A stretch of DNA of 64,000 nucleotides, from assembly GCF_001570785.1 (NCBI RefSeq), contig NZ_BCSI01000008.1, positions 1 to 64,000 of the forward strand. Reading direction: 5' to 3'. This DNA is from Dermabacter hominis NBRC 106157 (GTDB lineage Bacteria; Actinomycetota; Actinomycetes; Actinomycetales; Dermabacteraceae). Numbering within the stretch: position 1 is the first letter of the stretch; every line of letters begins with the position of its first letter. This document shows positions 382 through 56,442 of this stretch, piece after piece. Position numbers and translations under genes: made by a program. A model generated the notes under the pieces. That model was not told the origin of the DNA and did no database searches. It was given only the letters and a program-made list of their open reading frames with translations.

Positions 382-1656
382 TCAACTTGCAACTTTCACC
401 ATGGCGGCATTCTTCTTGCCGCGCCGCAGCAGCAGGTAGCCACCGGCAAGCAGGGTGTACGCGCCTAGCTCGGTCTCAAGAACGTCGACGTCGCCCGCAA
501 TCTTTTCGCCGTTAACCGAGAGGCCCCCTTCCTTGAGCGCCCTCCGCACTGCGCCGTTCGAGTTCAAAAGCTCGGTAGCTGTAAAGGCCTCGACGATGTT
601 CGCCGTCGCGGGAAGCTCCACACACGGAAGCTCCCCTGCGATCACGGCAACCGTCGGACCATCGAGCTCACGCACATCTCCGCGCCCGAACAGCACAGAA
701 GCCGCCGCCTTCGCTTGCGCGGTCGCTTGCTCGCCGTGGACGAGAGTCGTCATGTCGTCCGCGAGAAGTTTCTGCGCGGCACGCTCATGTGGACGCTCAG
801 CCGTGGCAGCCTCGATCTCCGCGAGTTCTTCCGCCGGGCGGAATGTGAAGAACCTCAGGTACTTGAGGACATCGCGGTCGTCAGCTCCGAGCCAGAACTG
901 GTGGAAGGCATACGGACTCGTGAGCTCGGGATCGAGCCACACGGCGCCGCCCTCGCTCTTACCGAACTTCGTTCCATCGGCCTTCGTCACGAGCGGGGTC
1001 GTGAGGGCATGCGTTTGCACGCCCTCGACTTTGCGGATCAGCTCTGCACCGCCAACGATGTTGCCCCACTGGTCGTTTCCGCCATACTGAAGCGTCACAC
1101 CGTAGCGTCGGTACAGCTCAAGGAAGTCCATCGCTTGGAGAATCTGGTACGAGAACTCGAGGTAGCTGAGGCCTTCTTCGGAGTTCAGGCGTTTCGCGAC
1201 GATTTCCTTCGACAGCATCGTGCCCATGCGGAACTGCGAGCCGTAATCGCGAAGGAAACTCAAGACGTTGAGATCCTTGGTCCAGTCGTAGTTATTGACC
1301 ATCGTGACCCTGAATTCGCCTTCGGGATCGAGGAAGCGCTCAATCTGGCCGCGGAGCGACTCAACCCAGGTCGCCACGATGTCGGCCGAATTCATCTTGC
1401 GCTCGCCCGACATACGGGGATCACCCACGAGGCCCGTAGCGCCGCCGACGAGGGCGAACGGCTTGTTGCCCGCGAGCTGAAAGCGACGCATGGTGAGAAT
1501 CTGTGTGAGGTGCCCAACGTGGAGGGAGGACGCGGTCGGGTCAAAACCGCAATAGAGCTTGATCGGGCCCTCGTTTGCTGCGGTGCGGATCGCCTCGATC
1601 CCGGTCGAATTCACCAGCAGGCCACGCCATTCAAGCTCGTCAACGATGTTGACCAT
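382..1656 (-). CDS. tyrS: Tyrosyl-tRNA synthetase
   Basis: This class I aminoacyl-tRNA synthetase charges tRNA-Tyr with tyrosine in the cytoplasm. The 424-residue product has the bacterial TyrRS length. The HIGH motif appears as HVGH (residues 46-49) and the KMSKS loop as KFGKS (230-234), the KFGKS-type variant common in bacteria. The YGGNDQWGN segment (191-199) is the tyrosine-site region and the C-terminal part from about residue 350 is an S4 RNA-binding domain. The ATG is preceded by GGAG at suitable distance. It lies 73 bases after argH and is the last gene before the rrn-type promoters. No T-box leader is visible. Confidence 0.97.
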   Translation of the reverse strand: MVNIVDELEWRGLLVNSTGIEAIRTAANEGPIKLYCGFDPTASSLHVGHLTQILTMRRFQLAGNKPFALVGGATGLVGDPRMSGERKMNSADIVATWVESLRGQIERFLDPEGEFRVTMVNNYDWTKDLNVLSFLRDYGSQFRMGTMLSKEIVAKRLNSEEGLSYLEFSYQILQAMDFLELYRRYGVTLQYGGNDQWGNIVGGAELIRKVEGVQTHALTTPLVTKADGTKFGKSEGGAVWLDPELTSPYAFHQFWLGADDRDVLKYLRFFTFRPAEELAEIEAATAERPHERAAQKLLADDMTTLVHGEQATAQAKAAASVLFGRGDVRELDGPTVAVIAGELPCVELPATANIVEAFTATELLNSNGAVRRALKEGGLSVNGEKIAGDVDVLETELGAYTLLAGGYLLLRRGKKNAAMVKVAS

Positions 1657-1729: not shown

Positions 1730-4437
<2,708 letters not shown>

Positions 4438-4486
4438 GGGTTTTTCCTCCTAGGTCGAGTGGATCGGGGTGGCTCGCATCCGTGTT

Positions 4487-5029
4487 CTACGTGTGGTCGT
4501 CGGCTGTTATCCGGCGACCGTCGGCGAGCTCGCGCAGCGTAGACGCGAGTTCGCGCCCCTGCGCTGCGCCTCGAGCGACAATGAGGATCGTGTCGTCTCC
4601 CGCAACCGTGCCGAGGATCGAGGGCAGCACGGAGTGATCCAGTGCGCTCGCGAGATACTGTGCGGCCCCGGGCGGCGTGCGCACGACCACCAGGTTGTCG
4701 CTTGCCTCCGCGCTCACGAGCAGCTCTTCCGCGAGGCGTTGAAGCCTCGCCGCGTAGTGTTCTTGCGAGGGTGGGCGTCGCAAACTGTGAACCCGCTCGC
4801 CGCCTTCGGGAGGGAGCATGTACACGAGAGAACCGGAGCTCGAGCGCACCTTTTCGGCACGCAGCTCCACGAGGTCGCGCGACAGCGTCGCCTGGGTAAC
4901 GCTCACGCCGTCTTTCTCCAAAAGCGCGAGAAGAGCGGTTTGCGATGTGACCTCGGTGCGGTTCAGGATGTCGACGATCTTGCGTTGGCGCGAGATCTTG
5001 GTCTGCGGTTGCTGCGGTTGATCGCTCAT
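4487..5029 (-). CDS. argR: Arginine repressor ArgR
   Basis: ArgR is a hexameric, arginine-sensing repressor of arginine metabolism. The N-terminal winged helix carries the typical TQATLSRDL recognition region. The C-terminal domain has GTVAGDDTILIV, the oligomerization and arginine-binding segment. The reading frame is open to about 5086, but the ATG at 5029 has AAGGA five bases or so upstream and gives a 180-residue protein starting MSDQPQQPQ, close to the family length. Two ARG-box-like palindromes lie about 60-90 bases upstream, implying autoregulation. It directly follows the pheT terminator. Confidence 0.95.
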   Translation of the reverse strand: MSDQPQQPQTKISRQRKIVDILNRTEVTSQTALLALLEKDGVSVTQATLSRDLVELRAEKVRSSSGSLVYMLPPEGGERVHSLRRPPSQEHYAARLQRLAEELLVSAEASDNLVVVRTPPGAAQYLASALDHSVLPSILGTVAGDDTILIVARGAAQGRELASTLRELADGRRITADDHT

Positions 5030-5086
5030 CGATGTCCTTTCATGCCGCGGGGATCCTCGCGCGGGCGGCACACCGCGCACCACCAA

Positions 5087-5120
5087 AGCATTTTATTGCA
5101 GTCACATGCATGACTATACA
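5087..5120 (-). promoter_or_regulatory. Double ARG box (ArgR operator) upstream of argR-argG-argH
   Basis: Two imperfect palindromes match the ARG-box plan TGAAT-N4-ATTCA: TGCAT-GACT-ATACA (5107-5120) and AGCAT-TTTA-TTGCA (5087-5100). Their centres are 20 bases apart, about two helical turns. That is the arrangement known for ArgR hexamer binding in other bacteria. The AT-rich patch stands out from its GC-rich surroundings and lies between the pheT terminator and argR. The function is inferred from motif, spacing and position. Confidence 0.6.
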
Positions 5121-5167
5121 TAAAGAGCCTGAGCCCCGCCGCTCAATGCAAGCGACGGGGCTCAGGC
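5121..5167 (-). terminator. Intrinsic terminator after pheT
   Basis: A long inverted repeat pairs 5127-5143 with 5151-5167 (GCCTGAGCCCCG against CGGGGCTCAGGC) with one or two mismatches. On the minus strand it is followed by CTCTTTAT. It begins 30 bases after the pheT stop and directly abuts the ARG boxes, separating pheST from the arg transcript. Confidence 0.85.
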
Positions 5168-5196
5168 CGACTCCTTACCCGCGAGGGGCGAAGTCC

Positions 5197-7791
5197 TTAG
5201 GCGCGCAGCTCACCACCCACGGCCGATTCAACCGCGGCGATGGCTCGGGCACGGATCTCGTCGATCTCGGCGCCCTTGAGCGTTTTCTCATGAGGCCTAA
5301 GACGTACGGCGAATGCGAGCGACTTCTTGCCCTCAGGGACCTGGTCACCGCGATATTCGTCAAAGAGGCGAACCTCTTCCGCAACATCGCCAATCCCCAC
5401 GATGAGGGCCGCACGCACGGCCTCGGCGGGCGTGTCGTCATTCACGACGAAAGCAAAATCTTCCTTGGCGATCGGGAACGTCGAGATCGGCTCCGCCGGC
5501 ACCAGGGCGGGCGCGGACTCAATCACGGCTTCGAGATCAAGCTCGAACGCAGCCGCGTTCTTCGGAAGACTGAACGCCTTGATGACCGTCGGGTGAAGTT
5601 CGCCGGCAACGCCCACACGCTCCCCCTCAACGGTCGACAGGATCGCCGTGCGACCCGGGTGGAAAGCACTCGCTGTTCCCTGTTCGATCACGAGTTCAGT
5701 ACCGGCAGCGGCAGCGACGCGACGCGCGAAGGCAATCGCATCGGCCCAGTCCCACGCACGCGGCTTGGTCAACGGCCCCGCAGCAGTGATGGGGCCGCCC
5801 GCCACGAGCGCAACGTGGCCATCTTGCTTCGCGAGCGAGGAAGCGATCTCCTCCAACTCGGCATCGCTGGGGCGCGAGGAAGCACTCGGCACCGGAACGC
5901 GTTCGCCTCGCTTTTCGAAAACGAGACCGGACTCGAAGACCGCAACCGAATCCTCGCCGCGCGCGAGATTGCGCTGAGCAACGGGAAGAAGAGTTTCGAG
6001 AATCGCCGTTCGCATGAGCGGTTCATCGTCAGCGAGCGGATTGAGCAGTCGCACCGCATTGCGCAGCGGAGAATCCTCCGGCAAACGAAGCTTCGCGAAA
6101 GTCTTGTCGTTCGTGAACGGGAAGCTCACGACTTCGGTCGCGCCCGCCTCGGCGAGGGCATTTGCGACGGCACGCCTCGCCCGCTGGGCGCGAGTGAGGC
6201 CGCGCCCGCCGGGGGCCGATGGCAGCCTCGACGCAATCGCGTCATAGCCCTCGAGCCGCGCAATCTCCTCGACGAGATCCTCGGGGATGCGAAGATCGCC
6301 GCGCCACGTGGGCGGAACAACCACGAGAGTTTCCTCTCCGTTGTCTCCCCCTGCGGCGGAAGATACGGTGCAGCCGATCTTCTCGAGCGATCCGACGACC
6401 TGCTCACGCGTGTATGCAACGCCCACGACGCGCTCCGCGTAGTCAAGAGGCAGCGAAATTTCGGTCGCGACCTCCTGTCCGGCGCGCGCGTGCGTTCGGT
6501 TCGAGTCAAGCGTTCCACCGCCGTACTCGACGAGGAGCTGGGCGGCACGCCGGGCTGCAACCTCCACCAGCACAGGATCGACCCCGCGCTCGCCACGCTT
6601 GCCGGCCTCGGACACGAGCTTGTGGCGGCGCGCGGTGCGCGCCTGAGTCGTCGGGTCGAAGTGCGCAGCCTCGATCACGACATCGACGGTCGAGGAGTCG
6701 ACCTCGGTTTCGCTTCCGCCCATGACGCCCGCGAGCGCGACGGGACGTGCGCCATGACCACCGGTCGAGTCCGCCACCACGAGGTCCTCGGGGTGAAGCG
6801 TGCGGGCCTTGTCGTCGAGAGTCGTGAGCACCTCGCCTTGCTTAGCGCGGCGCACCACGATCGGTTCCGTAAGCTTCGCGGCATCGAACATGTGCAGCGG
6901 CTGGCCGAGATCGAGCATGACGTAGTTGCCGACGTCGACGATGAGCGAGATCGGACGCATGCCAGCGAGCGAAAGGCGCTGCTGCATCCAGCGAGGGCTA
7001 GGCGCCGAGGTGTCCACGCCGTTCACGCGCTGGGCGACATAGGAGGTCGCGCCGACGTTGCCGCGGATCGGGGCGTCATCTTCGAGGAGGACCTGAATGC
7101 CCTCACCGCTTGCCTCGGGCACCTCGACCTCAAGGGCGGGGTCGGTGAAACGCGCCCCGGTCGCGTGGGAGTACTCGCGCGCAACGCCTCGCATCGAGAA
7201 GCAGTAGCCGCGATCGGGCGTCACGTTGATTTCGACGACTTCCTCATCGAGGCCAAAAAGGGCGATCGCGTCATCGCCTGGCTTCGCTTCGATACCGTCG
7301 GCGATCCCACGGCCGAGAACGATGATGCCGTCCTCGGGATCCTCGCCGAGGCCCAGCTCGCTGGTCGAGCAGATCATGCCGTCGGAAAGGTGACCATAGG
7401 TCTTGCGTGCCGCAATCTCGAAGTTCCCGGGAAGAACTGTTCCGGGAAGCGACACCACGACGAGGTCACCCTCGACGAAGTTGTGCGCACCGCAAATGAT
7501 GCCGCGGCTCGGCACTTCTTCGCCGGGCTGCGGATCTTTCGGATTGTCGAGTGCTTCATTGTGCGCGTCGCCAACGTCGACGCGGCACCAATTGACGGTC
7601 TTACCGTTTTTGTGGGTTTCCTTGACGAGGTTCAAGACGCGGCCCACGACGAGGGGCCCCGTGACCTGAGCGCCAAAGATACCTTCTTCCTCGAGGCCGA
7701 CGGAGACGAGCGAGGCTGCGACAGCCTCGGCATTAGCGCCATCGGCAAGCTCAACGTGTTCGCCGAGCCATGAAAGGGGAATGCGGGGCAT
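5197..7791 (-). CDS. pheT: Phenylalanyl-tRNA synthetase beta subunit
   Basis: PheT forms the alpha2-beta2 phenylalanyl-tRNA synthetase with PheS. The 864-residue chain shows an N-terminal tRNA-binding OB-fold (about 40-155, including VVGRVLNLVKETHKNG). B3/B4 editing and B5 domains follow in the middle, then a catalytic-like core. The C-terminal ferredoxin-fold anticodon-binding domain includes SFPIAKEDFAFVV. Its start lies 3 bases after the pheS stop, so the pair is an operon. A strong terminator follows. In many actinobacteria argC comes next; here argR does. Confidence 0.97.
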   Translation of the reverse strand: MPRIPLSWLGEHVELADGANAEAVAASLVSVGLEEEGIFGAQVTGPLVVGRVLNLVKETHKNGKTVNWCRVDVGDAHNEALDNPKDPQPGEEVPSRGIICGAHNFVEGDLVVVSLPGTVLPGNFEIAARKTYGHLSDGMICSTSELGLGEDPEDGIIVLGRGIADGIEAKPGDDAIALFGLDEEVVEINVTPDRGYCFSMRGVAREYSHATGARFTDPALEVEVPEASGEGIQVLLEDDAPIRGNVGATSYVAQRVNGVDTSAPSPRWMQQRLSLAGMRPISLIVDVGNYVMLDLGQPLHMFDAAKLTEPIVVRRAKQGEVLTTLDDKARTLHPEDLVVADSTGGHGARPVALAGVMGGSETEVDSSTVDVVIEAAHFDPTTQARTARRHKLVSEAGKRGERGVDPVLVEVAARRAAQLLVEYGGGTLDSNRTHARAGQEVATEISLPLDYAERVVGVAYTREQVVGSLEKIGCTVSSAAGGDNGEETLVVVPPTWRGDLRIPEDLVEEIARLEGYDAIASRLPSAPGGRGLTRAQRARRAVANALAEAGATEVVSFPFTNDKTFAKLRLPEDSPLRNAVRLLNPLADDEPLMRTAILETLLPVAQRNLARGEDSVAVFESGLVFEKRGERVPVPSASSRPSDAELEEIASSLAKQDGHVALVAGGPITAAGPLTKPRAWDWADAIAFARRVAAAAGTELVIEQGTASAFHPGRTAILSTVEGERVGVAGELHPTVIKAFSLPKNAAAFELDLEAVIESAPALVPAEPISTFPIAKEDFAFVVNDDTPAEAVRAALIVGIGDVAEEVRLFDEYRGDQVPEGKKSLAFAVRLRPHEKTLKGAEIDEIRARAIAAVESAVGGELRA

Positions 7792-7794
7792 TGC

Positions 7795-8892
7795 TCAGAT
7801 CTCCGTTCCGTAGTGCTGGGAGAAGCGCACGTCGCCCTCCACGATGTCGTGCATGTCCGTTACCGAGTTTCGCAGCATGAGGATGCGTTCAATTCCGAGG
7901 CCGAACGCGAAGCCGCGGTATTCACTCGGATCGATCCCGCACGCGCGAAGCACAGCGGGGTTGACCATGCCGCAGCCGCCCATTTCAATCCAGCCCGTTC
8001 CGCTGCACACGCGGCACGCGGGATCCGCATCGGCATCGAGACCGTTCTTCGCCTCGCATTTGAAGCATCGGAAGTCCATCTCGGCGCTCGGTTCGGTGAA
8101 CGGGAAGTATGAAGGACGCAGACGCGTGATCGGCTTGCCGCCAAACAGGGCCTCGGCGACTTTGTCGAGCGTACCCACGAGATCCGCCATCGTCAGATCC
8201 CGGTCAATCGCGAGCCCCTCGACCTGGTTGAACACGGGGGCGTGGGTGGCATCGAGTTCATCGGTACGGAAAACTTTGCCGGGGCAGGCGATGTAGAGGG
8301 GAACGCCGCGCTCAAGCAACGTGCGCGCTTGAACGGGAGAGGTGTGCGTTCGCAGCACCTGGCCGCTTCCCTCGGGCGCAACGTAGAACGTGTCTTGCAT
8401 CTGGCGCGCAGGATGGTCCTCGTCGAAGTTGAGCGCGTCGAAGTTGAACCACTCGGCTTCGATCTCTGGGCCTTCGGCGATTTCCCAACCGAGACCAACG
8501 AAGACGTCCGCGATGCGATCCTGGAGGATGCCGAGCGGGTGGCGTGCACCGCGCGGAAGCCGGTCAACTGCTGTCGTGACATCCACGCGATCCTTCGCGA
8601 GCGCCTCAGCTTCTTCCTTTTCGGCGATCTCCTTCGAGCGCGCCGCGAGTGCCTGCTGCACGCGCCCCTTGGAACCGCCGATGAGTTTGCCAGCAGCGGC
8701 CTTCTTCTCGTTGGGCAGATCCTTAATACCGCGGTTCGCGCGTGAAAGCGGGGAATCGTCCCCGACATGGGCGATGCGCACCTGCTTGATCTCGGCCGAC
8801 GTCGTGGCCTCCGCAATCGCGGCGAGCGCAGAATCGACCGCGCGCGCGATCGCCTCCTCGCTCATGTCCACACTGTTCGTCACATCTGACAC
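7795..8892 (-). CDS. pheS: Phenylalanyl-tRNA synthetase alpha subunit
   Basis: PheS is the catalytic class II subunit of phenylalanyl-tRNA synthetase. Motif 2 (FRTDELDATHAPVFNQVEG, from residue 208) and motif 3 (GLGIERILML, 331-340) are clear. An N-terminal coiled coil occupies about residues 1-100. An insertion with two CXXC pairs (C276/C279 and C293/C296) looks like a small zinc knuckle, as seen in many bacterial PheS. The GTG start at 8892 has GGAG five bases upstream; an internal ATG at codon 10 is the alternative. Confidence 0.97.
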   Translation of the reverse strand: MSDVTNSVDMSEEAIARAVDSALAAIAEATTSAEIKQVRIAHVGDDSPLSRANRGIKDLPNEKKAAAGKLIGGSKGRVQQALAARSKEIAEKEEAEALAKDRVDVTTAVDRLPRGARHPLGILQDRIADVFVGLGWEIAEGPEIEAEWFNFDALNFDEDHPARQMQDTFYVAPEGSGQVLRTHTSPVQARTLLERGVPLYIACPGKVFRTDELDATHAPVFNQVEGLAIDRDLTMADLVGTLDKVAEALFGGKPITRLRPSYFPFTEPSAEMDFRCFKCEAKNGLDADADPACRVCSGTGWIEMGGCGMVNPAVLRACGIDPSEYRGFAFGLGIERILMLRNSVTDMHDIVEGDVRFSQHYGTEI

Positions 8893-23447: not shown

Positions 23448-24257
23448 CTATCGCCGCGCGGGGATCACGGTGATTTTCAGGGAACTGACTCGCTCCGCGA
23501 TGACCTGGGAGTGGGCGAGGTAGGTGTGGACCCGCGCCATGAGTGCATCGAGTTCTGCTTGCTCGAGGCCGGGAGTGAGGCCGAGCTTCAACTCGACTTC
23601 GCGCTCCTGCCCTGCCAGCACTTCGGCACCCTCAACTCCGTCGATAGCAGCCACGAGCGCCTCAACTTCGTCGAGCACCGTCGAGTCTTTGTACGGCGCG
23701 CACCAACGCCTGCCCTGCGCGATTGCCCAGAGCGCCGATCGGCGAAGAACGAGCGGTGCGCCGTCGCGTCCGAGGTCGAGGGCGAGGCACGTGCACCCTT
23801 CCGCGACGGCCGACTGAGCTGCCTGTTCGAGCACCATCGGCACGGGGCGAGCCTCGGGGCTCCACGCGGAGAGAGCCGCGGCGCTTGTGAACACGGGAAG
23901 CGCCATCTGCCCATCGCTCAGTTGAAGCTTGAGCATGGCCATGTCGGAGGCGTTATCGGCGTGCAGCCCGCTCGCCGTTGTCGCGGTCTCGGTTGCAATC
24001 GCTTGGATTGGAATAAGCACACGCGTGCCGGCTAGGGCTTCAACGAGTTTTTCGCGTGTGGGGTCCTCCCCCGCATCGCACGCGTCGAGCGCCTTGGCGA
24101 CGCCCTCGTTTCGCTCCCCCATATCACCAGGGAAGTGTGAAGGCGTGAGGTCGCGCCCGTGCCACGGTGTTCCCGCGGTGTCCGCGCGCTGATCCTTCGT
24201 TGCGAAATGCGGGGGTAGCGTGCGCGCGACCTTGGGATCTTGTCTCCGAAGGCTCAT
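23448..24257 (-). CDS. SseB-family protein
   Basis: This 269-residue cytoplasmic protein is SseB-like: the core contains LPVFTSAAALSAW and the C-terminal part resembles the SseB C-terminal region. Its biochemical role is not established. The frame stays open far upstream, but the ATG at 24257 overlaps the stop of the PriA/HisA gene as ATGA, so I take that start. The pairing of an SseB-like gene with priA is common in actinobacteria. Confidence 0.8.
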   Translation of the reverse strand: MSLRRQDPKVARTLPPHFATKDQRADTAGTPWHGRDLTPSHFPGDMGERNEGVAKALDACDAGEDPTREKLVEALAGTRVLIPIQAIATETATTASGLHADNASDMAMLKLQLSDGQMALPVFTSAAALSAWSPEARPVPMVLEQAAQSAVAEGCTCLALDLGRDGAPLVLRRSALWAIAQGRRWCAPYKDSTVLDEVEALVAAIDGVEGAEVLAGQEREVELKLGLTPGLEQAELDALMARVHTYLAHSQVIAERVSSLKITVIPARR

Positions 24258-25006
24258 TTTTTCCTTTCCGACGGTTGCTCGGCACCCTCGTTTTCGACTC
24301 TCTGCACGCACGCGAGACCGAAACGCCCTTCGAGGAGGGCGCGGCCCACGATGGTCCCTGCCACTCGGGTGTGGCCGGCAAGCCGCGCAAGGTCCTCGAT
24401 GTCTTTCAGGTCCGCGATTCCTCCCGATGCGATGAGTTCGGCGTCGGTCGCCCTCGAGACGCTCTCGAGGAGGGCAAGGGGCGGGCCTGAGAGAGCGCCG
24501 TCGCGATCGATCTCCGTGACGATGAGGCGAGCGCAGCCCGCGTCGTTGAGAAACGCGAGGATGTCCGTGAGCTCCCCGATGGGGTCCTCGCTTCCGCGAG
24601 GGTGAACGAGGGTTCCGCGCACGTCGACGCACACGGCGATACGCTCTGCGCGCGCATGAATCGCCTCTCGCACAAAGCCACGGTCCGCGAGCGCGGAAGC
24701 GGAGAGATTGACGCGCGCACACCCGGTTGCGAGCGCCGTGGTGAGGGCATCGCGAGAGTCGATACCGCCCGAACACTGGGTGCGAACCCCGAGGTCTCGT
24801 GCGCCGCGCACGATCTCGGCGAGCAGCGCCTCATTGTTCCCTCTCCCAAAAGCCCGGTCGAGGTCAGCAAGGTGGATCCACGCGGCGCCGCTGCGCGCGA
24901 AGAGTCGGGCAGCCTCGGCTGGGTGCAGAGCGTCGTGTCCGCGTGGTGCGCGTGCGAGGGCCCCACCCGCGATGTCAATAGCGGGCAGAAGGGCGAGCTG
25001 AGACAT
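24254..25006 (-). CDS. PriA/HisA-family isomerase, possibly TrpF-specialized
   Basis: This (beta/alpha)8 sugar isomerase has 250 residues. Actinobacterial PriA does both the HisA step (ProFAR) and the TrpF step (PRA). Catalytic D11 (LLPAID), R19 and D169 (EIDRDG) are present, as is the phosphate-binding SGGI. In the loop after DVRG, where PriA has RGW (R143 and W145 in M. tuberculosis), this protein has RGS (137-139). In studied PriA, the Trp is used for ProFAR and the Arg for PRA. Its loss, and the lack of other his genes nearby, suggest a TrpF-only enzyme. The alignment is by eye. Confidence 0.85.
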   Translation of the reverse strand: MSQLALLPAIDIAGGALARAPRGHDALHPAEAARLFARSGAAWIHLADLDRAFGRGNNEALLAEIVRGARDLGVRTQCSGGIDSRDALTTALATGCARVNLSASALADRGFVREAIHARAERIAVCVDVRGTLVHPRGSEDPIGELTDILAFLNDAGCARLIVTEIDRDGALSGPPLALLESVSRATDAELIASGGIADLKDIEDLARLAGHTRVAGTIVGRALLEGRFGLACVQRVENEGAEQPSERKK

Positions 25007-54201: not shown

Positions 54202-56442
54202 GTGGCTTCCTCTGACGAGCAAATCGCCCTCGAGCAGCGCTACGCCGACCGAGTCTACGCACGCATCGACGAACAAATCGCACGCCTCGAAACGCAACTC
54301 ACTGACGTCATCAGCGCCCAGACGGCGAGCACGCACCAAAACCGCAGCGAGCGAGACTCCTTCGCGACTTTCTACGAGGATCGGATCGGGCTGCTGAGGT
54401 CCGTCTCAGAGAACGCTATTTTTGGCCGGCTCGACAGGTCCGACGCCACCCGGCACTACATTGGGCGCATCGGCGTGTTCACCGCTGAAGGCACCCAACT
54501 CCTGGTCGACTGGCGCGCCCCCGCAGCCGCCGCGTTTTACCAGGCAACGCCGAGGCACCCGCAGGGCGTTCGCTTGCGTCGGCACCTCGTCACTTCGGGA
54601 CGCACCGTGACCGATATCGAAGACGACGTTCTCGACGGCACGCTCCTCGACTCAGATGAGCACCATTCGAGCCTCCAGGGAGAAGGGGCACTCCTTGCGG
54701 CGGTCTCCGCGAAACGCACGGGCCGCATGGGCGATATCGTCGCGACAATCCAGGCCGAACAAGATCGCATTATCCGCCACGAAACACGCGGCGCGCTCGT
54801 TGTGCAGGGAGGCCCCGGCACCGGCAAGACTGCCGTCGCCCTCCACCGCGCGGCTTACCAGCTCTATACGCACCGTAAGAGGCTCGAGCATTCGGGCGTT
54901 CTCATCGTTGCCCCCACGCGCGGCTTCCTGCGCTACATCGAGCGCGTGTTGCCCAGCCTCGGCGAAACAGGCGTCGTCACCCTCACGCCGGGCGAACTCG
55001 TTCCGGGCGTGCGGGCAGACACACACGATCGCGAAGACGTCGCCCGCGTCAAAGGGTCCCTCGCGATGGCAAAGGTTCTGCGCCGTGCCGTCAAGGCGCG
55101 CCAGCAAGTTCCCAAAGGCCCCATCGACCTCAATATCGACGGGGTCCACATCACTCTCACTCCGGGCGATGTCCGTACAGCGCGCGCGGAGGCCCGCGCG
55201 ACGGGCAGGCCGCACAACCATGCACGCACAACCTTCGTACGCGCCGCACTCGACCGCCTCGTTGAGGCCTATGTCGCCGAGCTCACGCGCCTCGAACGCC
55301 CGTGGGCAGAGGAGGACCGCGCGGATCTCCTCCACGATCTGCGAACGAACCACGACGTCAAAGTCGCCCTCAACCGGTGCTGGCTGCCATACAGCCCGCA
55401 ATCCTTCGCCCGTTCATTCTTCGCGAGCATCGAGCGGCTGGTTCACGCGGCGGGCGACCACATGAGCGCGCGGGAGATCAAGCTTCTTCACCGCTCGAAG
55501 GACGCCGAGTGGACGATCGAAGACGTCGCCCTCCTCGACGAAATCGCGGAGCTCCTCGGTGAAGACGACACCGCCACGCAGCGCGAGAAGGACAAGGCTC
55601 GCACCACCGAACGCTCAAACCTCGAGTATGCCGAAAAGGTGCTGTCCATGATTGATTCCGAGGGGATCGTCAGCGCAGCTGAACTCGCCGCTCAGGTTGG
55701 CGCACGGCGCGACAGTCGCTCCCTCGCCGAGAAAGCCGCAGCGGATCGCACCTGGACCTACGGCCACATCGTGGTCGACGAGGCACAAGAGCTCTCGCCG
55801 ATGATGTGGCGTGCACTCATGCGTCGAAACCCCACGAAATCGTTCACAATCGTGGGCGACGTGGCGCAGACCTCCTCGGTCTCCGGCGCCGACTCGTGGG
55901 ATCACGCGCTTTCGCCATTTCTCGAGGATCGGGCGAGCATTGAGGAGCTCACCGTCAATTACCGCACGCCGTCGCGGATCATGCGTCACGCCTCCGCACT
56001 CGCTGCCGCACACGGCTTGCGAGTGACGGAGGTCAGGAGCGTGCGCGAAGGTGAACACGACGTACGTTTCCGGCACACACGTGCCGACAGGGTCATCGAG
56101 GAGGCAGTTAACGAGGCGCGCACGCTTGCCGACCTCACGCAGGGCCGCGTGGCGATCCTTTGCCTCACCGATGATCTTGGTGCCCTCCTGGCGGGAGCTT
56201 CGGCAGTTTTCGGTGCCTCGGCAGTGGGCCGCGGCTCGGTCGGTGTGGACCGGGAAGTTTCCGTGATGACGCCGACGGATGCCAAGGGACTCGAATTCGA
56301 CGCGGTCGTCATCGTGCGCCCCGCCGAGATTCTCACGAGCCATGCTCGCGGCGCTAACGATGTGTACGTCGCGCTCACGCGACCAACTCAGGCGCTCAGC
56401 GTGGTTTATTCGGGAGATCTTCCCGCCGGGTTACGCGCGTAA
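54202..56442 (+). CDS. HelD/HelR-type RNA polymerase-associated helicase
   Basis: This UvrD-like superfamily 1 ATPase has 746 residues. Walker A GGPGTGKT is near residue 203 and VDEAQELSPMMW (Walker B) near 523. The long N-terminal region includes ISRQ-like coiled-coil helices and LLVDWRAPAAAAFYQ, characteristic of HelD. HelD proteins dissociate stalled or inactive RNA polymerase from DNA, and some actinobacterial HelR forms protect polymerase from rifamycins. Which class this is cannot be told without structure-based alignment of the N-terminal arm. Confidence 0.88.
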   Translation: MASSDEQIALEQRYADRVYARIDEQIARLETQLTDVISAQTASTHQNRSERDSFATFYEDRIGLLRSVSENAIFGRLDRSDATRHYIGRIGVFTAEGTQLLVDWRAPAAAAFYQATPRHPQGVRLRRHLVTSGRTVTDIEDDVLDGTLLDSDEHHSSLQGEGALLAAVSAKRTGRMGDIVATIQAEQDRIIRHETRGALVVQGGPGTGKTAVALHRAAYQLYTHRKRLEHSGVLIVAPTRGFLRYIERVLPSLGETGVVTLTPGELVPGVRADTHDREDVARVKGSLAMAKVLRRAVKARQQVPKGPIDLNIDGVHITLTPGDVRTARAEARATGRPHNHARTTFVRAALDRLVEAYVAELTRLERPWAEEDRADLLHDLRTNHDVKVALNRCWLPYSPQSFARSFFASIERLVHAAGDHMSAREIKLLHRSKDAEWTIEDVALLDEIAELLGEDDTATQREKDKARTTERSNLEYAEKVLSMIDSEGIVSAAELAAQVGARRDSRSLAEKAAADRTWTYGHIVVDEAQELSPMMWRALMRRNPTKSFTIVGDVAQTSSVSGADSWDHALSPFLEDRASIEELTVNYRTPSRIMRHASALAAAHGLRVTEVRSVREGEHDVRFRHTRADRVIEEAVNEARTLADLTQGRVAILCLTDDLGALLAGASAVFGASAVGRGSVGVDREVSVMTPTDAKGLEFDAVVIVRPAEILTSHARGANDVYVALTRPTQALSVVYSGDLPAGLRA

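Follow-up and report, generated by a model that had tools for sequence, protein, structure and literature searches.

A shortened argR-argG-argH cluster beside pheT in Dermabacter hominis suggests arginine synthesis from external citrulline

We analyzed a 64,000-nucleotide stretch of Dermabacter hominis NBRC 106157 (positions 1 to 64,000 of contig NZ_BCSI01000008.1), hereafter the window, which belongs to contig C8 and carries a shortened arginine gene cluster. The genome (G000) comprises 2.155 Mb in 28 contigs and is 99.97% complete. NCBIfam annotation and a hairpin scan placed pheS, pheT, a terminator, argR, argG, argH and tyrS in this order on the minus strand (Table 1), each of the six genes exceeding the curated cut-off of its own-family NCBIfam model. 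Alignments to solved structures span residues 1-395 of 413 in ArgG, 23-482 of 489 in ArgH and 5-166 of 180 in ArgR. The aligned part of ArgR includes GTVAGDDT, and both the DNA-binding and the arginine-binding domains are present. The start of argR was set at an ATG at position 5029 preceded by AAAGGA, as the listed frame 4487-5086 begins too early. The terminator after pheT and the ArgR operator (ARG box) in front of argR, both proposed in the first-pass annotation, correspond to a terminator-like hairpin and to a predicted box, respectively.

Comparison of the pheT-argR junction with related genomes revealed that argCJBDF are missing from their usual place, as the same annotation had claimed. 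By ArgG, the nearest named locus among the matches listed is L001 of genome G039 (95% identity), and the window falls among Dermabacteraceae. The pheT-argR distance, measured between alignment ends, is 114 bp in the window, 164 bp at L001 and 157 bp in genome G041 (locus L124), compared to tblastn-based distances of 5521 bp in G040 (L002), 5639 bp in G045 (L007) and 8143 bp in G043, Helcobacillus massiliensis DSM 23040 (L003). In the initial set of Dermabacteraceae loci with both pheT and argR, L001 alone lies below 5.5 kb. The interval from the pheT stop to the argR ATG is 167, 193 and 210 bases in the window, G039 and G041, respectively. In G040 the interval consists of argC, argJ, argB, argD and argF, every one over cut-off, whereas none of these five genes was found between pheT and argR in G000, G039 and G041, so that the shortening is common to the clade of these three genomes. 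An argC match was present in 27 of the 29 loci compared, a few of which are duplicate copies of one genome; the two loci that lack it (L013 and L017) are short contigs ending before the argC position. The Helcobacillus massiliensis locus (L003/L132) has ~2.5 kb of additional sequence between pheT and argC.

The first-pass annotation had further asked whether the genes are absent genome-wide. Searches for argJ, ornithine carbamoyltransferase (OTC), carB and argR covered 47 genomes of the family, and those for argC and argB the four genomes of the genus (G000, G039, G040 and G041). For argJ, 41 of the 47 genomes gave a match and G000, G039 and G041 gave none; the other genomes without argJ (G030, G032 and G033) are all assemblies of hundreds of contigs. 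OTC was matched in 44 genomes, 41 of them over cut-off, and G000, G039 and G041 alone had no match whatever. Both argC and argB exceeded the cut-off in only one of the four genus genomes (G040), with none in G000, G039 and G041. The weak matches, which were given gene names in G000 only, were identified as aspartate-semialdehyde dehydrogenase (Asd) for argC, and as glutamate 5-kinase (ProB) on contig C3 and an aspartokinase on contig C10 for argB. By comparison, argR was matched in 46 of the 47 genomes, the exception being G033. The genome-wide absence thus stands for argJ and OTC, which have no match, and for argC, argB and carB, which have none over cut-off, whereas argD was seen to be missing at the cluster only and was not searched genome-wide. 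A complete argCJBDF cluster elsewhere in the genome was also sought and not found.

It is extremely unlikely that the missing genes lie elsewhere in the genome or in an assembly gap. The 28 contigs and the restriction of the argD search to the cluster leave some room for this, but the genome is 99.97% complete, five families have no match over cut-off and the junction lies inside a contig. Moreover, the G041 assembly, one contig of 2,392,314 bases, shows the same pattern, so that an assembly gap fails as an explanation.

The pyr locus of the same genomes has been shortened in a similar fashion. Tblastn searches with the G040 frames showed that G040, G042, G043 and G045 share the order efp-nusB-pyrR-pyrB-pyrC-carA-carB-pyrF-mihF-gmk-rpoZ-coaBC, in some cases with a small gene after pyrC. 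NCBIfam models named efp, nusB, pyrR, pyrB, pyrC, carA, pyrF, gmk and coaBC in G040, the genome search named carB there, and annotation in G000 named pyrR and mihF (mIHF); the remaining gene is presumably rpoZ, judging from the usual gene order. In G000 (contig C12, L157:8937-10074), G039 and G041 (loci L157-L159), tblastn gave efp-nusB-pyrR-mihF-gmk, with mihF directly after pyrR. The segment pyrB-pyrC-carA-carB-pyrF was not found at the pyr locus of these three genomes; carA, pyrC and pyrF were not searched elsewhere. Genome-wide, carB exceeded the cut-off in 43 of the 47 family genomes, with a large fragment in G027, and in none of G000, G039 and G041, which have weak partial matches only. 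The candidate on contig C6 of G000 was identified as a biotin-carboxylase-type protein. In addition, the OTC search gave a weaker second match, established in G040 as aspartate carbamoyltransferase (pyrB), in 43 of the 47 genomes (in pieces in G003); it is absent from G000, G039, G041 and the 74%-complete G030. The retained PyrR of G000 is 91-92% identical to those of G039 and G041, and its family name also denotes uracil phosphoribosyltransferase.

As judged from gene content, two operons whose pathways converge on carbamoyl phosphate have both lost their enzyme genes and retained a regulator gene (argR and pyrR, respectively). Because argCJBDF are missing at the cluster and no carB was found, the arginine pathway is reduced to the steps that follow the entry of carbamoyl phosphate. 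We therefore favor, with a probability of roughly 0.77, an old excision in a common ancestor that left a citrulline-to-arginine module of ArgG and ArgH, the genes for carbamoyl phosphate being lost as well. In the common ancestor with G039 and G041, a deletion from about argC codon 6-9 to just 5′ of argR would have removed argCJBDF, and pyrB-pyrC-carA-carB-pyrF would have been lost from the pyr locus in the same lineage. Loss of carbamoyl phosphate synthetase and OTC would leave no route from ornithine to citrulline. Since the synthetase is gone, the arginine steps through OTC would be useless and citrulline would be the earliest usable precursor. Imported citrulline would then be converted to arginine by ArgG and ArgH, and ArgR with arginine would shut the argRGH operon via the ARG box that covers the former argC -10. 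Arginine is thus probably made from external citrulline alone. The dependence on outside citrulline or arginine, anticipated in the first-pass annotation, would follow from the gene set, because argC, argJ, argB, OTC and carB were not found. Similarly, pyrimidine salvage must be obligatory if pyrC and pyrF do not lie elsewhere in the genome. Gene content, junctions, the ARG box, the single clade and purifying selection are observed, whereas we infer a single event, the sequence and cause of both losses, the import of citrulline, repression by ArgR and the growth phenotype. The predicted nutrition is a requirement for citrulline (or arginine) and uracil, with ornithine useless. The pathway would have been cut exactly at the point of use of a shared metabolite, alongside the loss of that metabolite's synthesis, with argR and pyrR spared.

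Trees of PheT and ArgG (17 rows) grouped G000, G039 and G041 with supports of 100/100 and 100/99, with one state change. The ratios of nonsynonymous to synonymous substitution rates (dN/dS) among the three genomes, rough as they are, were 0.020-0.032 for argG, 0.033-0.081 for argH and 0.059-0.064 for argR, compared to 0.063-0.084 for pheT, 0.027-0.051 for tyrS and 0.014-0.024 for pheS. The three arg genes are intact and under strong purifying selection, and the values speak against decay. This bears on the reading that argR-argG-argH are idle leftovers of a vanishing pathway, with arginine simply imported, which is unlikely. Growth on imported arginine is compatible with the gene set; however, the three proteins are full length, their dN/dS since the split (0.02-0.08) is within the tyrS/pheT range (0.03-0.08), with pheS lower (0.01-0.02), and the ARG box is present in all three genomes.

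Citrulline recycling cycles exist in other organisms, which lends some credit to the idea that ArgG and ArgH recycle citrulline formed internally from arginine by NO (nitric oxide) synthase, arginine deiminase or a related hydrolase. Nevertheless, this is very unlikely here: the NO synthase oxygenase domain PF02898 was found in 0 of the four genus genomes, the ADI family PF02274 in G040 only, and arcA had no match in G000, G039 and G041. The loss of arcA is not peculiar to these three, as G016, G025 and G043-G046 likewise gave no match. In G040 (L084, C3), arcA, arcB (a second OTC) and carbamate kinase are adjacent. The argB model cross-matches this true carbamate kinase at 38.6 bits, and through this cross-match, no dedicated search having been made, no carbamate kinase was seen in G000, G039 and G041; one in G000 would probably have surfaced in this way. 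We also give little credence to the retention of ArgG and ArgH for another purpose, such as aspartate-to-fumarate flux or an argininosuccinate side product. Nothing specific favors it, and the operon retains argR and the ARG box; moreover, citrulline is a required substrate of ArgG.

The sequence between pheT and argR resembles a remnant of the argC promoter and start. The ARG box was sought with the pattern TGNATNNNNATNCA. It was found once in the window, against an expected mean of 0.21; this match is weak taken alone, because 21 of 100 shuffles also hold at least one. The perfect box lies over the -10 in G000, G039 and G041, together with a one-mismatch box at -5. No sigma-70 -35/-10 pair passed the scan at 4400-5300. 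The argC starts of relatives were chosen by eye as the first ATG or GTG past a TATA-like box. Among 15 argC promoters, TGTATA occurs in 12 and GTATA in 14, about 15 bases 5′ of the start, with L010 deviating. We call these starts “leaderless” because a box at about 15 bases leaves no room for a ribosome-binding site. Likewise, G000, G039 and G041 have a TGTAT box at -15 before a start codon with argC-like first codons, the stubs starting VTAIKC, MIANRF and VIANQF, compared to MSAKTF for argC of G040 and MIEKAF for that of Helcobacillus. The stub open reading frames (ORFs) have 21, 37 and 36 codons in G000, G039 and G041, and, counted from the argR start, their stops end at -10, +8 and -10.

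Table 1. Positions of the junction features and arginine genes in the window
Feature	Position	Strand	Evidence or remark
pheS, upstream flank gene	7795..8892	-	TIGR00468 above cut-off
pheT, last gene ahead of junction	5197..7791	-	TIGR00472 above cut-off
Terminator-like hairpin 3′ of pheT	5126..5168	-	20-pair stem, T-rich tail; fold z -6.95 for 5120-5165
TATAGT, -10-like box, probably from argC promoter	5113..5118	-	presumed leaderless start equally distant in most argC-bearing relatives
ARG box TGTATAGTCATGCA overlying the -10	5107..5120	-	sole TGNATNNNNATNCA match in window; same place in G039 and G041
Overlapping second ARG-box-like site, 1 mismatch	5097..5110	-	same site in all three genomes
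Presumed leaderless stub ORF, 21 codons	5040..5105	-	first ~6 codons argC-start-like; stop ends 10 nt 5′ of argR ATG
argR, arginine repressor, 180 aa	4487..5029	-	TIGR01529 and NF002880 above cut-off; PDB 3ere
argG, argininosuccinate synthase	3196..4437	-	TIGR00032 above cut-off; PDB 4u7j, E 1.5e-190
argH, argininosuccinate lyase	1730..3199	-	TIGR00838 above cut-off; PDB 6iem, E 4.6e-190
tyrS, downstream flank gene	382..1656	-	TIGR00234 above cut-off; same side in Dermabacteraceae loci

Alignment of 37 bases at the argC start of G040 with the gap gave 26, 22 and 26 identical positions in G000, G039 and G041, a match equalled by 0, 4 and 0 of 5000 shuffled gaps, respectively. With the Helcobacillus argC start, 20, 22 and 22 positions are identical, and 46, 11 and 2 of 5000 shuffles are as good. 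In both cases the pieces were picked after the sequences had been seen, and the shuffles preserve base composition only. With the nearest reference, G000 and G041 give good support for an argC scar, and the other comparisons give less; the descent of promoter and stub from argC appears well founded but not certain. Most likely, the argR operator occupies the former argC promoter, where the box covering the -10 either arose or became a better match. The stub carries 3-5 Arg codons. We do not propose leader-peptide attenuation, as shuffled sequences fold as well as the 116-nt leader plus start region (z 0.08). Genome-wide, G000 has seven perfect ARG-box sites, compared to two in a reversed control. 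The six sites other than that of argR lie within or at the start of open frames, one of them where a MoeB/ThiF-type protein begins, and four have identical or nearly identical counterparts in one or both sister genomes. We do not claim a wider ARG-box regulon, as coding sequence alone could explain this recurrence.

Several observations weigh against the proposed excision and its citrulline-to-arginine outcome. The trees allow a single loss and do not prove it. The dS values of 0.84-1.48 for argG and argH are near saturation, which makes the dN/dS ratios rough. By the pattern used, no good ARG box precedes argC in G040 and G043, the two closest argC-bearing genomes; their sites have two mismatches, that of G040 lying at -15. 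The resemblance of the scar to argC is less marked in G039 and with the Helcobacillus reference. ArgG and ArgH could serve another use of argininosuccinate.

Similar arginine and pyrimidine lesions occur in lactobacilli, and the citrulline-uracil need of gonococci is tied to carAB. The truncation with its citrulline (and uracil) requirement is a known kind of event, of which the window provides a new example with a tidy anatomy. Compared to the actinobacterial argCJBDFRGH clusters beside pheT in Brachybacterium, Helcobacillus and G040, the locus has the same flanks and a similar placing of the -10 before the first gene. However, argCJBDF are gone and the perfect ARG box is at -15, whereas in 11 of the 15 argC promoters a TGNATNNNNATNCA site with at most one mismatch lies at -35 to -39. 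A requirement for both citrulline and uracil, predicted here and expected wherever carbamoyl phosphate is not made but ArgG and ArgH are retained, is named in the available text of PMC2775202 for the PCU- (proline-citrulline-uracil requiring) and CUH- (citrulline-uracil-hypoxanthine requiring) auxotypes of Neisseria gonorrhoeae. These are strain-level auxotypes, whereas here the operons, argF and pyrB included, are gone from a clade of three genomes. Similar to the module proposed here, external citrulline restores arginine-free growth in Staphylococcus aureus, and argGH are repressed by the ArgR-type regulator AhrC; unlike here, S. aureus retains OTC and deiminase genes and is also rescued by ornithine (PMC9239276, available text). 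The gonococcal and staphylococcal examples come closest among known cases.

A host source of citrulline is plausible, no more. As a genus, Dermabacter is associated with humans and their skin. In the available text of PMC9140947, filaggrin arginine is converted to citrulline in skin, and breakdown to free amino acids takes place in the upper stratum corneum; deimination in the epidermis is also documented in that of PMC12471417. According to the available part of PMC9927561, an artificial sweat contains citrulline, ornithine HCl and arginine, 50 mg per litre of each; Dermabacter hominis was one of the strains examined there with sweat and sebum, and the basal medium contains 100 mg per litre arginine. 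More speculatively, the clade might make no carbamoyl phosphate and live on host citrulline, from deiminated filaggrin and sweat, and on uracil, so that a host protein modification would feed the arginine supply of a commensal. By the deletion, moreover, a leaderless leader ORF might have arisen from the argC start. With the ARG box on the -10, argRGH would then be a self-contained switch under autoregulation, and translation of the stub, which ends beside the argR start, would couple to or tune argR. We regard this extended scenario as doubtful. Should host skin prove to be the source of the citrulline, deimination of host proteins and the diet of a commensal would be connected. In the Dermabacter literature, no title or abstract opening among the matches listed describes this loss of arginine and pyrimidine genes; most subscription journals lie outside the coverage.

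The first-pass annotation had also connected the arginine cluster to an altered PriA and to a broader erosion of amino-acid pathways. PriA, of HisA/TrpF type and encoded on the minus strand at 24254-25006 of the window, is indeed divergent (TIGR01919, 188.6 bits vs a cut-off of 306.45). A general erosion is not borne out, as proB, lysC and asd are intact; the diaminopimelate epimerase encoded in the window likewise counts against it. A study of PriA in Actinomycetaceae (PMC5404923) likewise describes loss of amino-acid pathways in reduced actinobacterial genomes, with Dermabacteraceae in its tree; according to its available text it concerns his and trp, and the word arginine occurs 0 times in the main text. 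Farther along, the window encodes a HelR/HelD-like RNA polymerase recycling ATPase on the plus strand (54202-56442), which scores under the cut-offs of the named models.

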